From Candidatus Altimarinota bacterium (lineage in GTDB: Bacteria; Patescibacteriota; Gracilibacteria; JANQMV01): a stretch of DNA of 42,999 nucleotides. The stretch is taken from positions 1 to 42,999 of the forward strand of contig JANQMV010000046.1 of NCBI GenBank assembly GCA_028279865.1, read 5' to 3'. The position numbers and the translations under genes were made by a program. Positions 12,052 through 42,999 of this stretch are shown here, in pieces (the first letter of the stretch is position 1; every line of letters begins with the position of its first letter). Under the pieces are notes generated by a model. That model was not told where the DNA came from. It searched no databases and was given only the letters and a program-made list of their open reading frames with translations.

Positions 12052-14751
12052 ATGGAAAAACAAACAAGAATTACACAATTTTTCATCGACTTAAAGACTT
12101 CTCCGGAAGGATTAACCTGACCTGAAGCAAAAAAAAGGCTAGAGACACACGGACGCAACGAGCTTGACGTCAAGAAAAAAGATCCCCTTTGGTTAAAATT
12201 TATCCGCCAGTTTAAAGATTTAATGGTTTTAATTTTAATTGGAGCAGCCTTAGTCGCAATTGCAGTCGCCCTAATTGAAGGACATCCTGATGAGCTTACA
12301 GATGCCTATATTATTTTGGGAATTGTTTTTTTGAACGCAATCATTGGTTTTGTACAGGAATTTAAAGCAGAGAAAGCCCTAGAGGCATTACAAAATCTTA
12401 TTGCGCCCAAAACAAGGGTCATCCGTGATTGAAAAGAAATCATGATTGAAAGCAAAGAGCTTGTTCCGGGTGATCTCATTATCCTTGCAGAAGGAGATAA
12501 AATAGGTGCAGATGCACAATTATTTGAAGCAAATGAACTTAAAGTTGAACAATCCGCTCTCACCGGAGAATCTGTCCCCGTACTCAAAACAGCTGACCAA
12601 AAAGCCGAAACCTGCCATAACAAGCACGACTCAAAAAACACAATTTATATGGGGACCTCCGTTGCCTCAGGCTCAGGTAAAGCAGTTGTCATCGGAACAG
12701 GTATGCAAACTGAGTTTGGAAAAATTGCAAACATGACAGTCAAAACAACAAAAGATCAAAGCCCTCTACAAAAAGAACTCTTTAAAATCGGCGTTTTTGT
12801 TGCCAAAATAACCCTAGTAATCTCAATCGGGCTTTTCTTAATCGGTATTTATTTTCAAGGTTATTCAGCCGTAGAATCTCTCCTTTTTAGCGTTGCTGTC
12901 GCAGTTGCAGCAGTACCGGAGGGACTGCCAGCCACTATCACAATCGCACTCGCTCTAGGGGTGCAACGTTTAGCAAGAAAACACGCAATCATCAAGCAAC
13001 TCTCATCTGTCGAGACATTGGGTAGTACCACAGTAATCTGCAGTGATAAAACAGGCACACTGACAAAGAATGAAATGACTGTCACCAAAATCTTACTCGG
13101 TTCAGACAAACAAATCAGTGTTGAATGAATTGGCTACACTCCGGAAGGAAAAATCAACTTTCCCGAACAATACAATAAAACTGACTTTGAAAAACTCTTA
13201 GCCGTTTCTGCCGTTTGTAATGAAGCAAAATTAGTCAAAGAAAAATGTGAATGGAAAATGCTTGGAGATCCAACCGAGTGATCACTCTTAGTCATGGCAC
13301 AAAAAGGTGGATTTGATTTAAGTAAAAATCAGTATAAAACAATTCACACCTTTCCTTTTGACAGCGAAAGAAAGAGAATGAGTGTCCTACTTGAGGATGA
13401 AGTTTTTGCCAAAGGTGCGCCTGATGCGATTTTGAAGCTCTGTACGCATATTCAAGAAAATGGAAAAATCGTCCCCTTAACCCAAGAAGCCAGAAACAAA
13501 ATTCAAAAATCGTATGATCAAATGGCACAAAACGCCTTACGCGTACTTGCTATCGCCTACCGCAAAGATATTAAAAAAGCAATCACAAAAACCGAAGAAG
13601 CCGAAAAAGAATTAATCTTCTTAGGTCTCGTGGGCATGATTGACCCGCCAAGACCGGAAGTCAAACCTGCTGTTAAACTTTGCCAAAAAGCAGGTATTCA
13701 TACCGTTATTATCACCGGAGACTTTGGATTAACAGCCAAAGCAGTCGCCCAAAAAATAAATTTAGCTGATGCAAAAACTCCGATTATAACCGGCGAAAAT
13801 TTAAATCAATTAAATGAAAATGAGCTCAAGGAGGTATTACAAAAACATAAAAAATTAATTTTCGCACGAGTCGCGCCGGAGCACAAAAAAAGAATTGTGA
13901 ATGCTCTAAAGGAATTAGGTGAAGTCGTCGCCGTCACCGGAGACGGAGTAAATGACGCACCGGCATTAAAACGTGCAGACATTGGTATTGCCATGTGAAT
14001 TACCGGTACAGATGTGTCCAAAGAAGTAGCAAACATGATCCTCACAGACGACAGCTTTGCTTCAATTGTAACAGCCGTAGAAGAATGACGCCAAATTTAC
14101 CAAAACCTCAAGAAATTTGTTTGGAATATATTCTCCACCAACATAGGAGAACTAACCACTATTTTTCTTGCAATCATTATCAACATCCCTGTTCCGTTAA
14201 CAGCAATCTTAATCCTGCTGATCAATCTTGGCACAGATGTTTTACCAACACTTGCCTTGGGAGTGGATCACAAAGAAAAAGGCATTATGAATACTCCTCC
14301 GCGTGATCCCAAATCACATATTATGAATAAAAAGTTCGTGACGCATTTTGTTCTCTTAGGGATTTACATGGGGATAGTTACCATTTGCGTATATATATAC
14401 GACCTTTACAGCCAAGGATGGACATGGCAAATGCAAATTGAAAGAGATGGCTATATGCAGATGCACGCCTCAACTATCGCTTTTGCAACACTCGTAATTA
14501 TCCAATTGGTCAATGCGTTTAATGCTCGCTCAGCGACAACATCCATCTTTAGATTAAAACCGAACTTTTATCTTATAGGAGCAGTTTGTATTTCACTATT
14601 AATGGTAATTTCGATTGTTTATGTACCATTTATTCAAGCAAAAACATCGGTTGTTGCTTTAGATCAAAGTGATTGGATAATTGTTATTCTGGCAAGCTTA
14701 AGTGTTTTGGTCGTTGAAGAAACACGTAAGTTTATAATTAAAAAGCAGTAA
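12052..14751 (+). CDS. Type II (SERCA/PMCA-like) Ca2+-transporting P-type ATPase, six UGA-Gly codons
   Basis: An 899-residue cation pump that exports (or sequesters) Ca2+ using ATP. The frame is continuous from ATG 12052 to TAA 14749-14751 only if TGA at 12118, 12430, 13126, 13279, 13996 and 14086 is sense. The contexts are SPEGLT(G)PEAKKRL, VIRD(G)KEI, GDPTE(G)SLL, GIAM(G)ITGTD and AVEE(G)RQIY, glycines that are near-invariant in this family. Other motifs: ALTGES in the actuator domain, phosphorylated Asp in CSDKTGTLT, and TGDGVNDAPAL. Ca2+-site residues fit SERCA: PEGLP in M4, TNIGEL in M5 and NLGTDVLP in M6. About ten membrane helices. The promoter is unclear; AT-rich sequence precedes it. 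Confidence 0.95.
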
Positions 14752-17157: not shown

Positions 17158-20100
17158 TTAAAAACCAATTTTTGAGCTTATATTATTATTACCTGATTCG
17201 CGTATGGATGCATTAAAATTTTTAGCTTTATTTTCTACACCAGTAAAACCGTTAATCTGGTTGCCCTCATTTAAAAACATACTAGCTCCTGCTGATTTTG
17301 CATAGTTTCTAATTCACCAAGAATTAAGGTTATAAGCTCCGTCAATACAAGATCCTGTCACATTAATAGAGTTTCAAGCTATTGATCAAATTCTTGCAAA
17401 CGATCAATGTCCAATGCTCTCAATTCCCATCCAAGAAGGTCATGTTATTGTATTATCAGTAATTTTACTAATATCCGAACCTTTGTTAAATATTGCACGT
17501 GAGCAGTTTCCAGTAACAGTAAAATCATTATTTTTAATAATAACACCTGAAGCATTACCTTTTACAAAGATACCCATATTCACATCCATGGAAAACCATA
17601 CCTCATTTGAACGAGATACTCTCGTATTTTCTATCCTCAAATTCTCAATTGTAATATCATTTCCGTAGTCATCTTTCCCCAAAAAAGAATTATCAGGTGT
17701 TCCATCAATTATAATACCAGTCTTAATCACTGGTTTATTCTCAGGATCACCGATTAAATGTGTATAGTGAGGAATATCAATATAGCTATTTCCGCTATAT
17801 TGACCTCTTGCAATAAAAATCGGACGAGGTTCCACATTTGATAAATCTCCTTTAAAATATTTTTGCTTACCATTTTTATGCACAAGAGCATGTACCTCGT
17901 CAACTGCAACTTGAATATCTCAAGCGTTTCCATTTGCCACTACTGTAAAAACCTTATTGCCGCAACTACCACAACTTCCTGCTTTACAAGCTGCAACACT
18001 ATAAGTTGCTGAAGTATTTGGGATAAACTTCTTATTGCTTAAAGAAGGATTAGAAACACTGGAGCCATTTTTACACAGTTGATACTCTGTCGCGCCATTA
18101 ACATCATTAAAATCTAAACTAAGCTGATTTCCACTCCATGCAACATTTGTAAGATTTGGAGCATCAGTTGGAGGACAAGCTTCAACCTCACAGGTCTCTT
18201 GATCATATGAACTATCCCCTTCTAAATTTCCATTATCACACTTTCTTTGGATTGAATCACAATTTTCTCCACAATCAACTGTCTCATCATCATATGCTGT
18301 TACACTCTCACCATGGTTAATCACTCCTCCCCATGGAAGATTACAACTACTTGCAGAATCAATACTACAAGTCGGTTCTACATAACTTCAACTTAACGAA
18401 CCATTCTTACATGTTCGTGTTTGCTTAACATCGTCACAACTCTCACCATATCCAACACTTGAGTCTGAATAATAATCTTTACTCGAATTATGAGCAACAA
18501 TTGATCAATCCGGACCTGTACACTTTTTATAACACTGACCATTTAATTCTGTTACATCCGCTTTACACTCATACGTACAATCCCCCGCAGTATTACTATA
18601 TTTCCAACTCTTCACCTCGCTCCAGCTTGAACCTCACCAAGTTTGCGTAAATGTATCCGAGCTGGTTTTCTGTCCATTTGGGTCTACCGATCACGCACAA
18701 TCTGCCTCTCGCGAATTAGCGACACAAGCTCCACCTTCTTCATGATAGCCACTTTCACATTCCCAACGACAATCACTATCAGATGGAACATAAGCAGAAC
18801 CATTCCAATTTGCTTCATACTTACCATTCTCACTCTCAACACCACTTGGCGATACCCATACAGAATTTACCGGTTTACCTTCACATGTTCCTGTTTTTTG
18901 ATCAGGATCACATGTTTTTTCTGCAGAGTTCCAATGCAAACCTGACTCACAAGTTTCTCCAAGAGCACAACTTCCATAGTCGCCATTATTACAATAACGT
19001 TTTCCAACTACACCATCGACAGAACAGCTTTTACTTCTGGTATTATAAGCCTCACCATAGTAATCAGACCATTCACCTTCACTATTCTGATAGCGTGTCC
19101 CCTGATCGACACAATCAATATCATCGTAATTCAAAGCCGTTCCTGTTTCACTACTACTACACCCGTACTGATCTTCCGGTTTAGCTGCATTACCGTTACA
19201 AGTTACATTTGATTTTTTTGTAACCGTCCTTGTAGAAATTCACGAATCATTACAAACGCTCCAATTTCCCGTATTCCAATCACTCTCAACACAATCCCTA
19301 ACTTCTTCTACATGACCACACTTATCTGAATTTTTCTCCTCCCTTCCATAAGTAACATAACCATCTTTACATTTTGCACGAGATTTATAAGTGGTACCAT
19401 CACATCTTGAAGCCAAATTTATACCATCACAAGGGTCACATTTTTGCTCTGTCGGTGGAACATAAGATCCCGGGGCTTTATCATCACAATCAGATTTTTT
19501 GACAATTCTTCTCGTTTGAGTTCCGTCTACTTGACAAATTCACCATGTTTTCTTTTCCCAGTCGGTAGCAGAATTTGTACAAACTCTTGTTTCTTCCACT
19601 GTTTGATCTGCCTCTTTTTCCGTATCTGTTGCTTCTTGTTCGGCAGAAATACGTTCTGCCTCAAGGCGTGCTGCCTCCTCTTCCGCAGCAATTCTCGCAG
19701 CTTCTGCGGCTTTCCTTTCTGCATCCAGACGTTTAGCCTCTTCAACTTGCCTCTTCGCCTCCTCTGCAGCTGCAATTTTTTCAGCTCTAATTCGTGCAGC
19801 TTCTGCCTCTGCTTGCTGCTTCGCAAGCTCTTCCTCCCTTTGTCTTTGAATTTCTGCCTGTTTACGTGCTTGCTCTTCTTCCAGCCTCTTCTTTTCTGCT
19901 AATTCTTCCAGAGCCTTTGCTGCGGCTTTTTGAACTTTATCCGAAGATGAAAGCTCTGCTTCTGCCTCCAGTCGTGCTTTTTCGACAAGCAATCATTCCG
20001 CACTCGCAATCAAGGCATCACTTACCTTAGAATTAGCATCTTTATCTTCCGCTTCAACATCAGAGCCTGTATCAAAACGAACCTGATAATCTTCGAGAAC

Positions 20101-21630
20101 TTGATTGATCACTTCCTTATCGTCCGTCTCTTTTGTTAAGTCCAGAATATCAGTCGCAAATCTTTTTTTATATTCAGTCTCTTTTATTTTCTTTTCCTCA
20201 TAATCTAATGTCGATTCTATCTCAAGTTCATACATCAATTCCTTCAAGTCATACATTTCAGAATCAGGCAAAATACTACCCAGTAATCTTTTGTGAAAGT
20301 CAAGAACTTCACCAATTTTATTTTTAATTTTAACTTGTTCTTCATTCGTAAGACCATGTTGGTCAATTTGCAAACCGACACTCTTTACCGTATTCTTAAA
20401 AGTCTGCACTAATTCCAGTGCCTTATCTTCCTTATCTTCCTTATCTTGTCTAAATAAAATATTAGCTTCAATCATTTTACGACTCGCAATTTCAAGCTCT
20501 GCAATAAATTTACGAAATTGGTCACCACTAACCCCCAAGACTACCTTATCTTTAATGTTCTTCAAGGCGTACAAAGGATTGTCCGGTAACATACCAGCAA
20601 CTGCCTGTTTATATGCTTCTTCTTCTTTTATAACTTGCTCAACATGCTGTTCATCCAAAAGAGCATTATCTTTCATCCATTCTGAAGTTTTTTCTGATTC
20701 AAGTAGCTCACGAGTTTCAAAAATTACATCTGTCTGTCAAGCTCTCTCTGACGCCTCAGTTTGTTCCGCTCCTTCATTTCCTTGATTCTTTATTTTTCAA
20801 TCCATTGCCTCATCAAGCCTCCCCTCACCAAGAGGATTAAATCCGTTCTTGACCTCATATCCATCTAAAAAACCATCGCCATCTGTATCAGGATTATCTG
20901 GATCAGTACCAAATAAAATCTCTTCATCATCAAATAAGCCATCATGATCACGATCACTTCGGAGTTGCTTTTTTATTCTGGTTTTATAGCCTTCCAAAAC
21001 CTGAGTTGTCCCCAAAATTTCTCCGCTTTTTTCATTCACAGCTGTTAAATCAACCGCATGTTGCGCAACAACAACTTCCGTCGCCTGAGTTTCCGCATCA
21101 ACTTTAATATCAAAAGCACTACCGCGTACTGCCGCAATCGTGTTGTAAGTTTCTACTTCGAAGGAAGAATCTTGAGTCACAATTTTGGTTACCTTATTCC
21201 AAACCTGGCCAGCATTCAGCTTTAATAAAATATTGGTCTCCATTTGATTTTCAGGGTTCACATCCATTTCTGTAATTTCCAAATTTGTCTTTTCTCGCAA
21301 ACGTGTCACCGAATTATCAAAAAAATCAATCAAAGCCTTCGCTCCTGTCGCAGTTTCTACGACATCTCCTACTTCTAAAATACGACTACTTTCAACACGT
21401 TCTCCATTTACATAAGCTTCTCCCTCCATCACAATCAAAGTCGTATGTGAATAATTTGCCTGCGTTACAGAAACATCCAAAATAAAAAGCTTTGGATCAA
21501 TCGTAAAAACAGCTCAAGCAAAAATAAAAATGCTTAAACAAATAGCCAAAAAGACTTTCAAAAAACTATGTCACTTGGGCTTATAAGAAGAACTTAAATC
21601 ATGGCTTTTGTTTTGATTTAAATCATTCAT
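17158..21630 (-). CDS. Giant Cys-rich surface protein: FecR-like, TSP3, coiled coil, Cys-rich repeats, beta-helix (17 UGA-Gly)
   Basis: One frame of 1490 codons from ATG 21630 to TAA 17158-17160. The standard code shows six separate ORFs, all in the same phase and separated only by TGA (17 in total; for example 17314, 17440, 17920, 18388, 18691, 19540, 19993, 20797, 21514). Order: basic N-terminus and membrane segment (~21-45); FecR-like domain (~67-210); Ca2+-binding thrombospondin-3 motifs such as DPDNPDTDGDG (~225-262); helical region with PDNPLYALKNIKDK resembling DUF5667 (~345-400); Ala/Glu/Arg coiled coil (~550-680); cysteine-rich repeats with CxxxC-type spacing (~683-1150); an FN3-like unit (~1155-1236); and a right-handed beta-helix (~1250-1490). 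Probably displayed on the cell surface. Function unknown. Confidence 0.88.
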
Positions 21631-27835: not shown

Positions 27836-30800
27836 ATGGTTGAGATTTCGACAGCTTCAGATCAAGAAAGGACCACTAACGATATAGTTGATACTTCTTT
27901 GATAAATGAAGATAAAACACCTAAAAACAATCCTACTAGCCTAGAACTTCATATAACAAAAGTACGGGAAAAACTGACTAAATATTTGCAAGATCCTAGC
28001 CCTTTGCGTAGTTTTTTTGATCTTGATAACAAAGAAACTGAATCACTAATTATTGGGCAAATTACTCAAGAGCCCCAAATCAAAGAACAAATAAAAAGAA
28101 AATTAATTGAATATATCGAATGTAGGCATACTAACGACGCTGCCGCATTAATCAGTATTACATCACCAACTTCTGCAGAAATCTTAAAAAGTCCTGATGT
28201 CCAAAAAGCTGTAAAAGCAGCTTTAATTCAAGCTTTAAAGGGGCGTACTCCGTATTATAACTGGAAAATTGGAGAAATTTTCCAATACCTATCTCCCTCC
28301 CAAGAGCTTGTCCAAAGTTTAGAAGTTCAAAAAACGGTACAAGAAGTGTTGCTACAGATATTAGAGAATTATCACACTCAAGTGACAGAACATAATAGTT
28401 ACAGTCTTAGCGATCTTTTTAGTGAAATTACAGAAATAACTAACGTTATTAAGCTTTCTCCCGAAGTCACTCAAAACTTAGAGCTTCGAGAAACAGCTAA
28501 GGCTGTATTAGCTAGTAAGGTGGAAGAACTATTTAATCCTCAAATTCCTCAGTATCACCAAAAAGATCACATTATCGAAATTACTGAGAATTTTCAGCTT
28601 ACGGAAGAAGTTATCTATCCAGTAGCTCAAAGAGTCATTATTGATCGTTTTCAAAAAGATGATTTGGAAGGTGCGTTTAAAGTTATTGAGGATTTTGACT
28701 ACCCAGATGAAGTGACTCAGTCACCTGAAGTTCAGCTAGAAGCTAAGAGAGTAGTTATAAAATGTATTGATGAGGTAAGTGGTGATATGGATGATGTCAT
28801 TCAGCAGGTTAAAGATGTATTTGGTCTTAGATTAGACTTAGATTCATGTAAAAGCATAACTAGCGAAGTTGAGATAATTACTCCTCTTGCATCTAAAATT
28901 TTTGAAGACTCTGAATTTTCCGCATTAACTCAGGATAGTGTTATTCGTAAACATTTTCGCATAAATGAACTTGCAGAAGTGTATACTAATAATCGTGGAT
29001 TGCTTGAAGAAAATCCAGCCAAAGTAGCTATTCAAGCCAGAATGGAATACCTAGAAACAGATGGCAACCTCGAACAAGAAGATGCTAAATGGTATAAGAA
29101 ACTATCAAAGATTTTTGGTAAAGAAAAAATTTCACATTTTATCGGTCTGGAAGATTACAGTTATTTTCATATTGCTGGAAGTTTTATACTTAAGGCATTT
29201 AATAACTCAGGTCTTTCAAGTAACGCATTTTACGGTCAAATCTTATCGCAAGTTGCTGATGATAGAGCTACTGGCACCGATGCTAAAACAGATTTCCTAA
29301 TGATTTGCTATAATTTAGATTATAACTTTGAGGAAGTGATTGGAGAAGCAAGGCAAATACCTAATCCGAGACTTCATCAGTTACTATCTAGTTTGGAAGA
29401 TGGTGGAGTTTTTTCTAGCTGGAAAAACCTGAAAAAGTTCAGCGAAATCTCACAGATTCTTAGTCAGCGTGAAGTATTAGAGAAACTTGAGCAACTAAAA
29501 CAAGATGATAAATCGCAACAATATGATTTCTTTTCACAATTAGCCTTCCATCCCAATATCTCAGTTAGAAAGGTTTTTGAGTTTATGAACGAGCCGGAAG
29601 AATTTCTTGAGCTTGAAGACGAAGATTGCGGTGAATCTCATGAGCGCAAAAAACCGAGTAACTATACAGCATTTCCACATCTCGACATAAGTGCTGAAGA
29701 CCTGCGTGATGCTTTGGTCGAGGGGAATATGGATCAATTACAATTTTTTCCTGAATTCACTGTTGATTACCGTATTCCTCAGCAAGAAATCACGAAAGAG
29801 TTTTTGGCACAAGAGCTGGTTCGTGCTCTGGGCAAACGTTCAGAGAAAATTCCGGGAGAAGCAAAAAATCCAAAAAAATTATTTAAAATATTAAATAAGA
29901 TATTTAACTCGCATAAAACAAGCTTACAAGCAGTTCTACAAAATCCCGAGAGTGTTTCTTCAGAATTGAAAAAAGAATTGGAAGGAGCTATTTATGAGGA
30001 AAAAATAGCTTTAAAAGATGACAGGCAATTTGATAATTATCGAGTAAAAGTTCATCTGAAATCTTCTCCCGAAGGACATGTGGCTGGTAATGACACGGCT
30101 TGTTGTATGCCTTTTGGTTCAGGTAAAAACAATATCTATATGTATAATCTTGCTTGTGCTACGCTCACAGTTCAGCGCGAGACAGGAGACAAGTACCGCA
30201 CAGTTGCCCAGAGTGTGATGACACCCGATGTTGATATCCAGCAAAACGTTTCTGAAGTTCTAAACTCGCTCATGGAAGACCACCAACAATTGCATGATGT
30301 ACTGGAGCAAGATCTTGGTTTCAACTCAGAAATTTTTCTTACTGCTGATAATATTGAGGTTTCCAAAAATTTCAAAGCAAAACATCATTTAAAATTCCTG
30401 TATCAAGATTTTTTATGTCGTTACATTGCTAAGCTGAATAATAAAAATATCAATCAAGAAAAAATAGTTATTGGTAAAGGCTATAGTGACCTCAGTGGTT
30501 TTGATGAAGAAGAAAATACTTTTGTTCCGCTTGCTCCTCCCGGATATAGTGATAACACTCACGAAAAGTGTTTTTTCTTGCCATTTGACACAGAGGTTAA
30601 AATAGAAGGTGCAGTGGCAAAAGAACACACATTTGATAAAAAAAATGAAAGCGAAGAAATAATACAGCTACCAAAAGGAGTTCGCCCTCTAACCTATCGT
30701 GACACGCTCGCTGTCGCTTATCTCGAAGGCAAAATCTATGCGGATAATGAATCGCTCATCCAATATCTGCATCGTATTGGTAATGAACTACTTGCAAAGG

Positions 30801-31213
30801 ATATAAATAACACTAGAAAAGATAGAAAAAATCTCTCTCTGGCGGTTGAAGACAAAAATGGAAAAATCTCTGGCTATATTATTGCCTACGAAGGAGTATT
30901 GGATAAATACGATGAAGAAAGTCAGCCGGTTATCTATGTTTCTGATCTGGCTTCTAGAGAGGAGAGTCTTTTAGCAGGAGGAAAGCTCATGAAGGGATTA
31001 CAGACAATGATAGAAGAAAACTATTTAAGAAACGATAACCCTATTCCATTGCTTGCTGAGGCTAGAGAGTCAACCAGTTATCCGATTATTCAAAAACAAA
31101 TAAATAAGTTGGGGCGTAAGTATGGCTATCGCTTTGAGATAGAAGAGCTTGAAGATTACTGGCAAGGTGAAGATATTATGCATCGCATGATACTCGTACC
31201 TCACAAAGTATAA
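27836..31213 (+). CDS. 1125-residue protein with N-terminal helical repeats and GNAT-like C-terminus
   Basis: Function unknown. Residues ~90-310 hold at least four copies of a ~70-residue helical unit marked by SPDVQKAVKAALIQAL, SLEVQKTVQEVLLQIL, LELRETAKAVLASKV and SPEVQLEAKRVVIKCI. The pattern is that of solenoid repeats in other CPR proteins. The middle is helical. A distinct segment at ~740-790 (GNDTACCMPFGSGKNN, then YMYNLACATLTV) looks conserved or catalytic. The last ~130 residues (SGYIIAYEG, VIYVSDLASREESLLAGG, LLAEARESTSYPII) suggest a GNAT fold. No signal peptide. It follows the PP2C gene by 58 bp on the same strand. It has about 45 glycines and no TGA, unlike its neighbour. Confidence 0.8.
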   Translation: MVEISTASDQERTTNDIVDTSLINEDKTPKNNPTSLELHITKVREKLTKYLQDPSPLRSFFDLDNKETESLIIGQITQEPQIKEQIKRKLIEYIECRHTNDAAALISITSPTSAEILKSPDVQKAVKAALIQALKGRTPYYNWKIGEIFQYLSPSQELVQSLEVQKTVQEVLLQILENYHTQVTEHNSYSLSDLFSEITEITNVIKLSPEVTQNLELRETAKAVLASKVEELFNPQIPQYHQKDHIIEITENFQLTEEVIYPVAQRVIIDRFQKDDLEGAFKVIEDFDYPDEVTQSPEVQLEAKRVVIKCIDEVSGDMDDVIQQVKDVFGLRLDLDSCKSITSEVEIITPLASKIFEDSEFSALTQDSVIRKHFRINELAEVYTNNRGLLEENPAKVAIQARMEYLETDGNLEQEDAKWYKKLSKIFGKEKISHFIGLEDYSYFHIAGSFILKAFNNSGLSSNAFYGQILSQVADDRATGTDAKTDFLMICYNLDYNFEEVIGEARQIPNPRLHQLLSSLEDGGVFSSWKNLKKFSEISQILSQREVLEKLEQLKQDDKSQQYDFFSQLAFHPNISVRKVFEFMNEPEEFLELEDEDCGESHERKKPSNYTAFPHLDISAEDLRDALVEGNMDQLQFFPEFTVDYRIPQQEITKEFLAQELVRALGKRSEKIPGEAKNPKKLFKILNKIFNSHKTSLQAVLQNPESVSSELKKELEGAIYEEKIALKDDRQFDNYRVKVHLKSSPEGHVAGNDTACCMPFGSGKNNIYMYNLACATLTVQRETGDKYRTVAQSVMTPDVDIQQNVSEVLNSLMEDHQQLHDVLEQDLGFNSEIFLTADNIEVSKNFKAKHHLKFLYQDFLCRYIAKLNNKNINQEKIVIGKGYSDLSGFDEEENTFVPLAPPGYSDNTHEKCFFLPFDTEVKIEGAVAKEHTFDKKNESEEIIQLPKGVRPLTYRDTLAVAYLEGKIYADNESLIQYLHRIGNELLAKDINNTRKDRKNLSLAVEDKNGKISGYIIAYEGVLDKYDEESQPVIYVSDLASREESLLAGGKLMKGLQTMIEENYLRNDNPIPLLAEARESTSYPIIQKQINKLGRKYGYRFEIEELEDYWQGEDIMHRMILVPHKV

Positions 31214-38584: not shown

Positions 38585-38613
38585 TTGATATATAACATTT
38601 TTTGTGTTATAAT
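38585..38613 (+). promoter_or_regulatory. Promoter of the giant secreted protein
   Basis: TTGATA (38585-38590), 17-bp spacer, TATAAT (38608-38613). The transcript would begin near 38620 and has about 50 nt of leader before the ATG at 38671. Confidence 0.75.
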
Positions 38614-38670: not shown

Positions 38671-41600
38671 ATGTACACGAAAAAACAAAACAAAATAGTG
38701 TCGTACTCTCAGCGGAGTCAAAGAGTATCGAAACGCAATAGCTGAGACGTATCCCTTCGACTCGGTCCAGTGAACTTTTTTAAACTTATTTCAAAAATTT
38801 TAATCACAATTTTATTTTTTCAAATAATCTTACCCGCAAGTTTAATTCCTCAATCAAAAGCCTTAACAACAAGCGTTGATTATTCAAATATCGGTGATTA
38901 TGATTTAGAGGATAATACAAAAATTGAAGTTGCTGAAGGGAAGCTTCAACTTATTTGAGAGGGACTGGAAGAAAGAGTTGAAGATGTTTTTTCGACTTAT
39001 TTGTATACAGGGAATGGTGGTATGCAGACGATAGAGAATAGAGTTAACTTGGAAAGTAATGGGGGTTTAGTTTGGACAAAAGAAAGAGGAAATAGCAATC
39101 CAAATATAATTATTGATACTGAAAGGTGAAACAAGGTATTGCAATCTAATGCAACCTTAGCAGAATACAATGATTGAAACGTAAATATATCGTCTTACAA
39201 CTCTGACTGATATAGCTTAAATGTGGCTTGACCAGAAATTAACTGAAGTTGAAGAGAATACGCCTCCTGGACTTTCCGCGAAGCACCGGGATTTTTTGAT
39301 ATTGTGACTTATACCGGAAACGGCAGTGATAACCACGTAATTCCTCACCAATTAGGTATTGAGCCAGGGTTTATCATGACCAAGAGAATTGATTCTGCTG
39401 ATGACTGGACTTCTTATCATCGTGGTCTGGATGTAACAAACCCACACCAATATTGGCTTGAATTAAACAATAATTCTGCGAAGCAATTTGATTCAAAGGG
39501 AATTTGGTATCAAAATCCGGATAGCAATAATTTTTACCTTTCGTCTTATGGCAATGCGAATGCAAATGGCGCTAATTATGTTGCTTATTTGTTTGCGCAT
39601 GATCCAAGTACTGATGGTAAAATTCAATGTGGAAGCTATGCGGGCTGAACAGACGACTCTGTGTTTGTTGACTTAGGATGGGAACCACAGTGGCTTATGC
39701 TTAAAAGAAGCTCAGGTGGTTCAAATTGGGCAATACTTGATACCATGAGAGGGCTAAATGCTAACAAAGGTTCTTCTCCACCTAGTAGGTTAGAAGCAAA
39801 TCTTACAAATGCAGAAAATACAGTTGGGCTCAATGGTGCATATATTGATTCAGAAGGTTTTTATCCTTGGGGTAATGGTGGCGGAGATTGGAATGCTTCA
39901 AGCGGTGAGTATATTTATTGTGCAATTCGTTCACCACAAAAAACTCCAGTGAATAGTCGTGAGGTATTTGCAATTGACAATAGAGACGCGGATTATCCAT
40001 CATTTGATTCTGATTTTTCCGTAGACATGGCGATAATGAAAAGAACAACATGAGGAAGTTCATATAGTTATTCAAAAAAATTAGGCACTAAAGAATTAAG
40101 AATAGAATCAGTAAATCCGGAAGGCAACAATTCATCAGCTGTGTTTGACTATATGAATTGATGGTATGAAGGGACGGCACTTAGTGACATTTATTCCTAT
40201 ATGTTCAAACGCGCTCCGGGTTTTTTTGACGTAGTGGCTTATGAATGAAATGGTGTTGCAGGAAGGACGGTAGAGCATAATTTGGGAGTAGTACCAGAGA
40301 TGATTTGGGTTAAAGGACGAGATTATTCTTCAGAATGGATTGTCTATCATAAAGATTCTACAGAGTACCTATATGAAGATTCAGCAAGGACTCAGTTAAA
40401 TCTTAATTCGGCAGGCAAGGCTGAAAGCAGTAATGCTTGGCATAGTACAGTTCCGACAGAACAATATTTTACACAAGGGCACGTAGGTGACGCGAACTGG
40501 AACGGGAGTGATTACATCTCCTACCTTTTTGCATCAGTTCCAGATGTTTCGAAGGTAGGTTCATACAAAGGAAATGGAACAACTCAAACAATCAATGCGG
40601 AATTCACTCAAGGGGCAAAATATGTTTTGATAAAAAGAACAGACTCTACAGGAGACTGGTATGTGTGGGATTCTGTACGTGGAATTGTATCAGGCAATGA
40701 TCCTCATCTTTCTCTCAATACAACAGCCGCAGAAGTAACAGGAAATGATAGCCTTGATCCTGATAATTCCGGATTCATTGTCAATCAAAACAGCACAACC
40801 AATATTAACGTTAACGGAGGTGAATACATTTATCTGGCAATTGCAAATGATAATGGCAAAGTCCGCTGAGCTTATCCGACAGATAAAGCTTATACAGCCG
40901 TAACCAATTTGAATTCTCAGATAGACTCAACCACTTGGGCGGATATAAACAATGTCAGCGTGACAGAAACAGTTCCGGCTCAGACAACAGAAGTCGCTGA
41001 AGCGGTGGATTTTGACGGAGAGAATGATTACTTAAGCCGTTCGAGTGAACTGACAGGCAATGCAGACGGAAAAACATTTACTTTTAGTTCATGGATTTAT
41101 AAAACTGCTGCAGGAGACTATCTTTTACAATCAGGAGGTTCAACTCCAGGGCAAAGATCGTTAGACATTTTATTCTCTGGCAATTCTACTTTATGGATAG
41201 ATGCTCGGAATTCTTCAGGTGTTAATTTTATGTCTGCCTCAGTTGCAACAGGAATACAACAAAATACTTGGTATCATGTATTAGTTTCAATGGACATGGC
41301 TAATACGAGCAATAGGCATATATATGTGAACGATGTAGATGTTACACCTTCTGCTACTTGGTATGCTTGGGCAAATGACAGAGTAAATTTTGCAGGTGCT
41401 TCCAAACATTATGTAGGTACATACGAAGGAAGTGAACGATGGGAAGGGCGGCTTTCGAATTTCTACCTTGATTACACTTATCGTGATTTATCTCAAGAAG
41501 CAAATCGTAGATTATTTATTACGGCAAATGGAAAACCTGCTGCAAATCAAGAGTCATTAAGTCCAATTATATACTTACCGCTCAAAGATGCAGCGACTGC

Positions 41601-42999
41601 TGGACAGAACCTAGGAACAGGTGGAGATTTTACTGTCAATGGGGCTTTGTCTACGTCTGAAAGAGGTCCAAATCAACATAATGTAGCAGCGAGTGTTTTT
41701 GATGGCTCAAATTATTTGAGAAACTCGTCTCTTCCTGTGATGTCGGATGGTAAAGTTTTCACCTTCTACGGTAATGCAAAGTTTGATGATGGAAACAGAT
41801 TTTTCTCAATGGAGAATAGTAGTGGAAATGTAAATTTTTTGGTTTATACTTGACCAGGTTATTTACAAGTTACTGCTGCAAATAGCTCGAATGCTAGTAT
41901 CTTGAATATTTATTCTACAGACGCTGTTCCAGACCATTGGTATAGTTTTGCTTTTGCTGTTGATATGACAGATCAGAGTAAAACAAAAATGTTTGTAAAC
42001 GGAGAAGAAATTTCATATAACGTTAATGTTTTTACAAATGATAATATTGGTTTTTCAGGGTTTCAAGCTGGAGAAGCCTTTGTAGGTAGCGCAAACAATG
42101 GTTTTTATAAATTTGATGGAGATATCGGAGAAATTTGGTTTGATACCTCGTATGTTGATTTAGCGACTAATAACCCCTTCTGGGATTCAGATGAGAATAA
42201 ACCAGCAGAGCTTGGCGCTAATGGAGAATTACCAACAGGTTCTTCTCCCTTGATTTATATGCCAATGAGAGCAGATCAGCCCACTAAAAACCTAGGGACA
42301 ATAGGAGATTTTGCTCAGACAGGAGCATTCCATGGAGCACGTGGTCCGAGTGAATTCTGGGGAAATAGTGCGGAGTTTGATGGAAATACCGGATATTTGA
42401 GTAAAAGTGGAAATTCTGGATTTGTAAATGCTAAGACTCTTACTGTTGCAATGGCTGTGAATCTAGACGACATTGCAAGTAGGCAGGTTTTTGATTTTTC
42501 TGCATGAGGTCCTACCTATGAGGCGGTAAAATGGCAAGCAAATGGTGGCGATTTTGGTCTTATTTTAGAAGGTAGTGATGGTTCTATTATCTTAAATGCA
42601 GGTAAAGATATTGTTAATCCTGTTAGTACAGGGAATTGGCATACAGTTTTATTTTCTGTTGATTTGTCTTCTATTGATACTCGTCATTACTATTTAAATG
42701 GAGAAGAATGAACTACAAATTGGAGAACATATTCAAATCAATCTGTTGATTTAAGTAAAATAGTGAATAGTTACATTGGAGCATTTGGTGGAGGAAACTA
42801 CTATTTAGACGGTAAACTATGATTTTTATATATATCACAAAATTACATCGACTTCTCGCAGGAGTCGAACAGGCTTAAGTTTATTGACGGTCTGGGTAAC
42901 CCCAGATACATCGGTCAGAACGGAGAACTGCCTACAGGTTCAGCTCCACTGATCTACATGCCTTTCAAAGACGGGAATACTCTGGGCTACAACGCCGGG
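38671..42999 (+). CDS. Giant secreted protein with phage tail-fibre-type and LamG-like modules, 3' end beyond window (17 UGA-Gly)
   Basis: Open for 1443 codons from ATG 38671 to the right edge, provided 17 in-frame TGA are glycine (for example 38743, 39127, 39208, 39646, 40246, 41851, 42505, 42820). A signal or anchor helix is at ~36-60. Residues ~200-735 hold repeats marked by TYTGNGSDNHVIPHQLG / AYEGNGVAGRTVEHNLG, then GIEPGFIMTKR / VVPEMIWVKGR, YHRG and YVAYLFA. This pattern is found in tail fibres of marine phages (DUF7483-like). Three concanavalin/LamG-like modules (~770-990, ~1005-1215, ~1230-end) each begin with FDGxxxYL and are joined by a linker GANGELPTGSSPLIYMP also known from phage proteins. 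Likely a surface adhesin. GTG 38770 is an alternative start. Confidence 0.88.
38699..38774. repeat. Imperfect inverted repeat (REP-like) within the 5' end of the giant gene
   Basis: The left part contains CTCAGCGGAGTCAAAGAGTAT and the right part ATCCCTTCGACTCGGTCCAG, related as an imperfect inverted repeat (core GAGTC-A/G-AAG-A/G-G). It is GC-rich relative to its surroundings. It lies between ATG 38671 and the signal helix, so either it was inserted into the coding sequence or translation starts after it at GTG 38770. Confidence 0.45.

Follow-up and report, generated by a model that had tools for sequence, protein, structure and literature searches.

The long reading frame that closes the window (the whole stretch of DNA analysed, 42,999 bases, which is the entire contig C51 of a 1.48-Mb genome in 59 contigs, 95.8% complete) raises the question of why a code-25 CPR bacterium should encode a giant protein apparently made of phage tail modules. 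To our knowledge, little is known of how CPR bacteria single out the cells on which they live. A predicted surface protein consisting of whole phage tail proteins is a concrete and testable candidate for such recognition.

Re-translation left intact the still-open frame of 1443 residues reported by the first-pass annotation. Under table 25 the frame ran without a stop to the contig end, with 17 in-frame TGA codons read as glycine, and under table 11 it fell into short fragments. Reading TGA as glycine was also required by a P-type ATPase (12052-14751) and by a 1490-residue protein (17158-21630, minus strand) elsewhere in the window. The frame is open at 42999 because the contig stops there, this being a contig end and not a gene end, and no continuation of the gene was found on any contig of the genome. 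Six contig ends (C9, C34, C44, C51, C52 and C58) were located within this one gene family; its genes are therefore cut, and short-read assemblies will under-report genes of such families. Contamination or a false join was rejected, as TGA is used for glycine in both the A and the B part of the window gene (see the table) and as five further family members lie on other contigs with neighbours of their own.

Features of the reading frame and its surroundings (positions in the window; residues of the window protein)
Feature	Position	Strand	Remark
Promoter-like site, TTGATA-17-TATAAT with TG extension	38585..38613	+	about 57 nt 5' of the start codon; agrees with the consensus at 11 of 12 positions
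Whole open frame, 1443 aa, code 25	38671..42999	+	cut by contig end
Predicted signal peptide with long basic n-region, residues 1-64	38671..38862	+	hydropathy, charge, AxA-like end SKA
Linker, residues 65-103	38863..38979	+	separates the signal peptide from VEDVFSTYLY, which the paralogues also have
Module A, residues 104-727: two tandem DUF7483 domains, six beta units of about 100 aa	38980..40851	+	
Linker A-B, residues 728-774	40852..40992	+	tract common to paralogues
LamG unit 1 of module B, residues 775-1002	40993..41676	+	46 relatives among viruses; 52% in the best full-length alignment
LamG unit 2 of module B, residues 1008-1226	41692..42348	+	
LamG unit 3 of module B, residues 1232-1443	42364..42999	+	cut by contig end
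156 bp that match the end of the C52 paralogue at 98.7% identity	42844..42999	+	probable assembly break point

The secretion signal proposed earlier was confirmed by hydropathy and charge and by a protein start that is conserved in the paralogues on C52 and C58. Residues 43-59 (ILITILFFQIILPASLI) form the most hydrophobic 17-mer of the whole protein. The n-region preceding them is long and carries a net charge of +9, and PQSKA and then L come directly after the hydrophobic helix, the cleavage site after SKA being assigned by eye. The promoter-like site upstream is weak evidence alone, since three such sites were observed in the region and 2.0 were expected. A 101-bp stretch coding for the n-region (38690-38790) recurs in the C52 and C58 copies at 86-92% identity, is missing in C34 and is replaced by another sequence in C9; a dispersed repeat was sought in the n-region and was present at three paralogue starts only. 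The signal-peptide front end itself appears to have been exchanged between copies.

The repeats that had been described as EGNG/HNLG-type modules turned out to be six homologous units of the Pfam family DUF7483 (PF24299), which was matched in two stretches with an E-value of 7.8e-87 and 291.9 bits, well in excess of the curated cut-off of 27 bits; there are 11 DUF7483 matches in the genome. All pairs among the six units matched by profile at E <= 4.3e-8, and the module is two copies of a three-unit block, with unit u1 corresponding to u4, u2 to u5 (E 1.5e-46) and u3 to u6 (2.7e-29). The first-pass annotation had proposed structure prediction for each module; for module A, AlphaFold2 gave a confident, all-beta model (pLDDT 91.2, pTM 0.88), which compared with a phage DUF7483 protein at TM 0.90/0.85. 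No solved structural relative was found by sequence or by fold, either for the whole module or for its last two units, and a literature search found no mention of DUF7483. We know of no tested function for this domain, and its role in receptor binding is a presumed one.

Module A was present in at least 575 viral contigs of IMG/VR. Most of the 80 best loci have it as an ORF of its own, about 630-690 residues long, which begins some 20-60 residues ahead of the unit and ends at the unit end; the whole module aligned, for example, with an ORF of viral contig L194 (44.5% over 638 residues). Among isolated phages, 57 records matched, with mostly marine hosts, and the window protein also matched a PHROG tail fiber. 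All of gp45 of Roseobacter phage CRP-13 is an A module, adjoining tail-fibre genes, and module A of the window protein aligned with it at 45% over nearly the full length of the module. The viral homologues stay open without TGA as a sense codon, and the donor phages seen are therefore phages of other hosts.

Three LamG-like units had been noted behind the repeats, and all three were recovered as module B, together with the linker, which occurs in the window protein (NGELPTGSSPLIYMP and NGELPTGSAPLIYMP) and in a viral homologue (SGELPTGSSPLVYLP). In most of the 46 viral loci, B is a complete ORF of about 715 residues with exactly three LamG units. Viral contig proteins matched at 37-40% across all three units (for example L194:5884-8022), an ORF of L185 matched at 40% over 690 residues, and a protein of Thiohalocapsa phage LS06-2018-MD03 matched the first part of the module at 42%. 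The viral B-type proteins of L211, L213, L216 and L220 carry about 260 extra residues within the first LamG unit. The first-pass annotation had raised the prospect that the modules might match only ordinary bacterial LamG proteins, and this candidate was rejected: module B scored 421 bits to viral B as against at most 34 bits to the other giant LamG proteins of the same genome, encoded on C31, C33 and C52. In the comparison with Gracilibacteria and marine phage proteins, A and B aligned to whole viral ORFs, and among 353 class members full-length matches to B were found in this genome only, the others reaching at most 46 bits.

The order of the two modules also has a viral counterpart. In viral contigs L192, L194, L202, L207 and L212, A lies just upstream of B on the same strand. 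This is a minority arrangement, seen in 5 of the 30 B loci having at least 3 kb of upstream sequence, and of the top A loci, 36 had sufficient sequence downstream and none of these had a B-type gene there. The order in L194 is tail fibre, A, a tail-fibre piece, B, tail-fibre assembly and endolysin. The gene after A belonged to the tail-fibre assembly family phrog_4912 in 7 of 8 viral genes scanned, that of L207 being of unknown function, and by eye a gene of the tail-fibre-assembly type follows A in most of the 36 loci. The sole viral fusion seen, CRP-603 gp52, has a LamG unit before A, in the opposite order, and the fusion of A and then B was seen in the bacterium only. Because A and B are separate, complete viral genes and A is upstream of B in five contigs, fusion is the simplest reading of the gene, so that the window protein would most simply be a signal peptide followed by the whole of phage protein A and the whole of phage protein B. 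The earlier picture of joined modules is thereby corrected to one of two complete phage-type proteins in series, encoded by a gene that has several relatives elsewhere in the genome.

At least six family genes occur in the genome, on C51 (the window), C52, C9 and C31, with N-termini on C58 and C34, and they apparently encode very large exported proteins. The C31 copy is complete, with 5395 residues and two DUF7483 domains within a chain of bacterial-type LamG domains; it ends in a domain lacking a Pfam name, and no other copy of this C-terminus was found. C44 continues the N-terminus on C58 or that on C34, having an exact 94-bp overlap with both, and its copy (L023:5833-8970) is truncated by a TAG inside the second LamG, with nothing homologous past the stop. 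In the C9 copy, A is followed by a domain related to gp33 of Roseobacter phage CRP-738 (43% over 89 residues) and to CRP-13 gp43 (30% over 145 residues). As CRP-13 gp43 is encoded two genes downstream of the A gene, the phage order of genes may be retained in this second copy too. The copies have diverged to 52% identity. Pairwise dN/dS values between them were 0.19-0.35, with dS near saturation, and the copies are therefore held by purifying selection. Runs of identical codons were shared by C51 with C52 (25 of 25 at residues 748-776; 0 of 2000 shuffles), with C44 (24 of 25 at residues 734-760; 1 of 2000) and with C9 (24 of 25 at residues 657-684; 3 of 2000). Such near-identical local patches between different pairs would fit segment exchange between copies.

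Are these genes phage genes at all? The neighbours in the window are housekeeping genes (those for EF-G, ClpB, PdxS/T, GidB, PheT, NusA, a SpoIIE-type phosphatase, IF-3, a 2-oxoacid:ferredoxin oxidoreductase and RibD). The copies on C52, C31, C9, C58 and C34 are also flanked by housekeeping genes, and the flanking phage structural genes that the first-pass annotation had considered as a sign of a prophage were not found beside the window copy or the others, nor were phage replication genes. The phrog_4912 family was not found in the bacterial genome. With these housekeeping neighbours and without phrog_4912, the gene is phage-derived and not a phage gene, and a prophage gene was rejected as a candidate. 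Likewise rejected was a target of a diversity-generating retroelement, as no reverse transcriptase (RVT_1) was found in the 95.8% complete genome, with positive controls. Plasmids and E. coli, which were also searched, gave no match. Two further large frames lie in the window. The 1490-residue code-25 protein mentioned above, with FecR, DUF5667 and one TSP3 match, a cysteine-rich middle and a pectate-lyase-like end, is probably another large surface protein; and a 1125-residue frame without a Pfam match (27836-31213, plus strand) directly follows the SpoIIE phosphatase and anti-sigma-like/STAS genes.

In an unrooted tree, the five bacterial A modules grouped in a single clade (SH-aLRT 100) with viral sequences all around it, in agreement with one capture that was followed by duplication. 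Unit u6 exists in two forms, which matched viral sequences at 74-78% as against about 62% to each other; this would suggest repeated phage input, and in an AU test on u6 a single origin was not rejected (p 0.80). In cells, DUF7483 was found at 16 loci in 84,980 species genomes, several of them on short MAG contigs, and, within the phylum, in 8 of the 380 members that were sampled. Although the tree is unrooted, transfer from phage to bacterium is favoured by the abundance of the modules in viruses, by the viral gene order, by their rarity in cells and by an A-then-B fusion that only the bacterium has. Phage origin and domestication are thus well supported.

Two opposite views of this origin can be set against it. 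That the genes still belong to a phage, or are prophage remnants, would agree with the strong viral homology and with the C44 copy, which is truncated as decaying prophage genes are, and yet this view is scarcely credible in the face of housekeeping flanks at six copies, signal peptides, the fusion, 17 TGA codons, purifying selection and the lack of a tail-fibre chaperone. That ordinary bacterial adhesin domains were instead taken up by phages is allowed by the unrooted tree and by the few Patescibacteria that hold DUF7483. It is highly improbable, however, considering the at least 575 viral contigs as against 16 cellular loci, many of them on short MAG contigs, the small share of the phylum that carries the domain, and the restriction of full B-type proteins to this one genome of the class.

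Our best explanation, to which we assign as a whole a probability of roughly two in three, is that: the gene product would be a Sec-exported giant surface protein, the known extracellular part of which is built from two complete phage tail proteins, joined in viral order behind a bacterial signal peptide in a code-25 CPR bacterium; the tail-fibre chaperone genes would have been lost; the gene would have been duplicated to at least six loci, after which the copies diverged and swapped segments; the protein, displayed on the cell, would bind glycans or proteins of another cell, much as in presumed phage adsorption; and the copies would together offer a range of binding specificities. The variable genes with which marine phages recognise their hosts are those for tail fibres and lectin-like proteins (PMC3909814). 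Tail fibres move with their chaperones as modules among distant phages, some fibres working without a chaperone (PMC10579305). Bacteria related to the present one have giant surface proteins and live attached to other bacteria, which they consume (PMC8080830). Since phage tail fibres recognise hosts and relatives of this kind attach, attachment to a host or prey cell would be the most likely use of the protein. The first-pass annotation had suggested a domesticated phage receptor-binding protein used for attachment to host cells; the tail origin and the reuse as a surface protein found strong support, and the attachment to a host cell is, by analogy, the best reading and a rather probable one.

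Other uses of a displayed, phage-derived protein have to be weighed against attachment to another cell. The protein might bind the bacterium's own surface glycans, masking phage receptors or forming a surface layer. Phage tail proteins do bind bacterial surfaces, a captured one could bind its captor if the donor infected the lineage, and the evidence for phage origin applies equally; such self-coating is unlikely nonetheless, as PADLOC found no defence family, as 52% identity between copies fits varied targets better than a single self-ligand, and as the donors that were seen infect other hosts. Carbohydrate binding is common among LamG/ConA-like domains, and the exported protein might gather polysaccharide or detritus with no partner cell; host compounds or detritus have been described as what one Gracilibacterium lives on (PMC6851277). 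This is very unlikely too, because the phage versions belong to clusters of tail-fibre genes, the target of which is a cell surface, and because no catalytic domain was detected in the window protein. Returning to attachment to another cell, a bolder version of it, which we regard as doubtful, is that the lineage maintains a set of adhesins derived from phage tails, which recombine and are replenished with further phage alleles, and so relies on phage receptor specificities in choosing the cells on which it lives. If that were true, the phage relatives of each copy would point to its host.

Among known systems, the nearest are the marine phage DUF7483 proteins themselves (CRP-13 gp45, CRP-603 gp52, PHROG 24898 and 19943), with which A aligns over nearly its whole length and of which CRP-603 gp52 likewise fuses a LamG unit to A. 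They differ in having no signal peptide, in using the standard code and in standing alone among tail genes, usually with a chaperone. The viral three-LamG tail proteins align with B over all units, but are separate genes in viruses and fused behind A here. The giants of Vampirococcus lugosii and of other host-dependent CPR bacteria are similar in being very large predicted-exported proteins with recognition modules in a small genome; for Vampirococcus the domains listed are WD40, TRP, PKD, DUF11, fibronectin and others of this sort, and the available part of the report does not mention a phage tail origin (PMC8080830). Receptor-binding parts of phage tail fibres are also reused by cells in eCIS and tailocins, where, as far as the accessible part of the source describes them, the fibre stays in the tail particle (PMC12923769), whereas here it would be a Sec-type surface protein; no tail tube, sheath or baseplate genes of an eCIS or tailocin lie within the window, the genome-wide search having been for the fibre chaperone only. 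A variable extracellular protein in a code-25 relative, the hypervariable surface gene of a Gracilibacterium, broke assembly as well, but it varies in a PTD tripeptide repeat and not in phage modules (PMC6851277).

The present case documents phage tail parts reused as a single exported protein and not as a tail particle, and suggests that bacteria can turn the cell-recognition parts of phages into attachment proteins of their own. As some of the related phages have known hosts (Roseobacter, Pelagibacter and cyanobacteria), knowledge of phage receptors might help to predict the hosts of CPR bacteria. A second and independent case of phage-protein capture is apparently provided by a class-mate (genome G007), in which one entire phage protein, of another type, lies inside a protein of over 3600 residues, 98% of 761 residues aligning at 38% with an SPRY-domain protein of Methylophilales phage MEP301.

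The giants on C31 and in G007, although the two class-mates are distant, are each followed by a small exported-type protein and then by a weak WxL-interacting-like protein (L028:9199-11516 and L176:1468-4027), the latter below the Pfam cut-off in both. The gene beside C31 scored 20.8 bits against a cut-off of 27.3, and the window gene had no WxLIP match. One such small protein matched NCBIfam CPR_Pam_pilin_C below the cut-off. In Ca. Nomurabacteria Ike-200m-9, lone phage-type A genes occur at L071:7999-9843 and L079:7941-9871, with no phage genes seen near them. Their frames are broken in or near the first third and their neighbours are housekeeping genes, including one clpP, and they have the appearance of captured genes in decay, in a CPR lineage other than this one.
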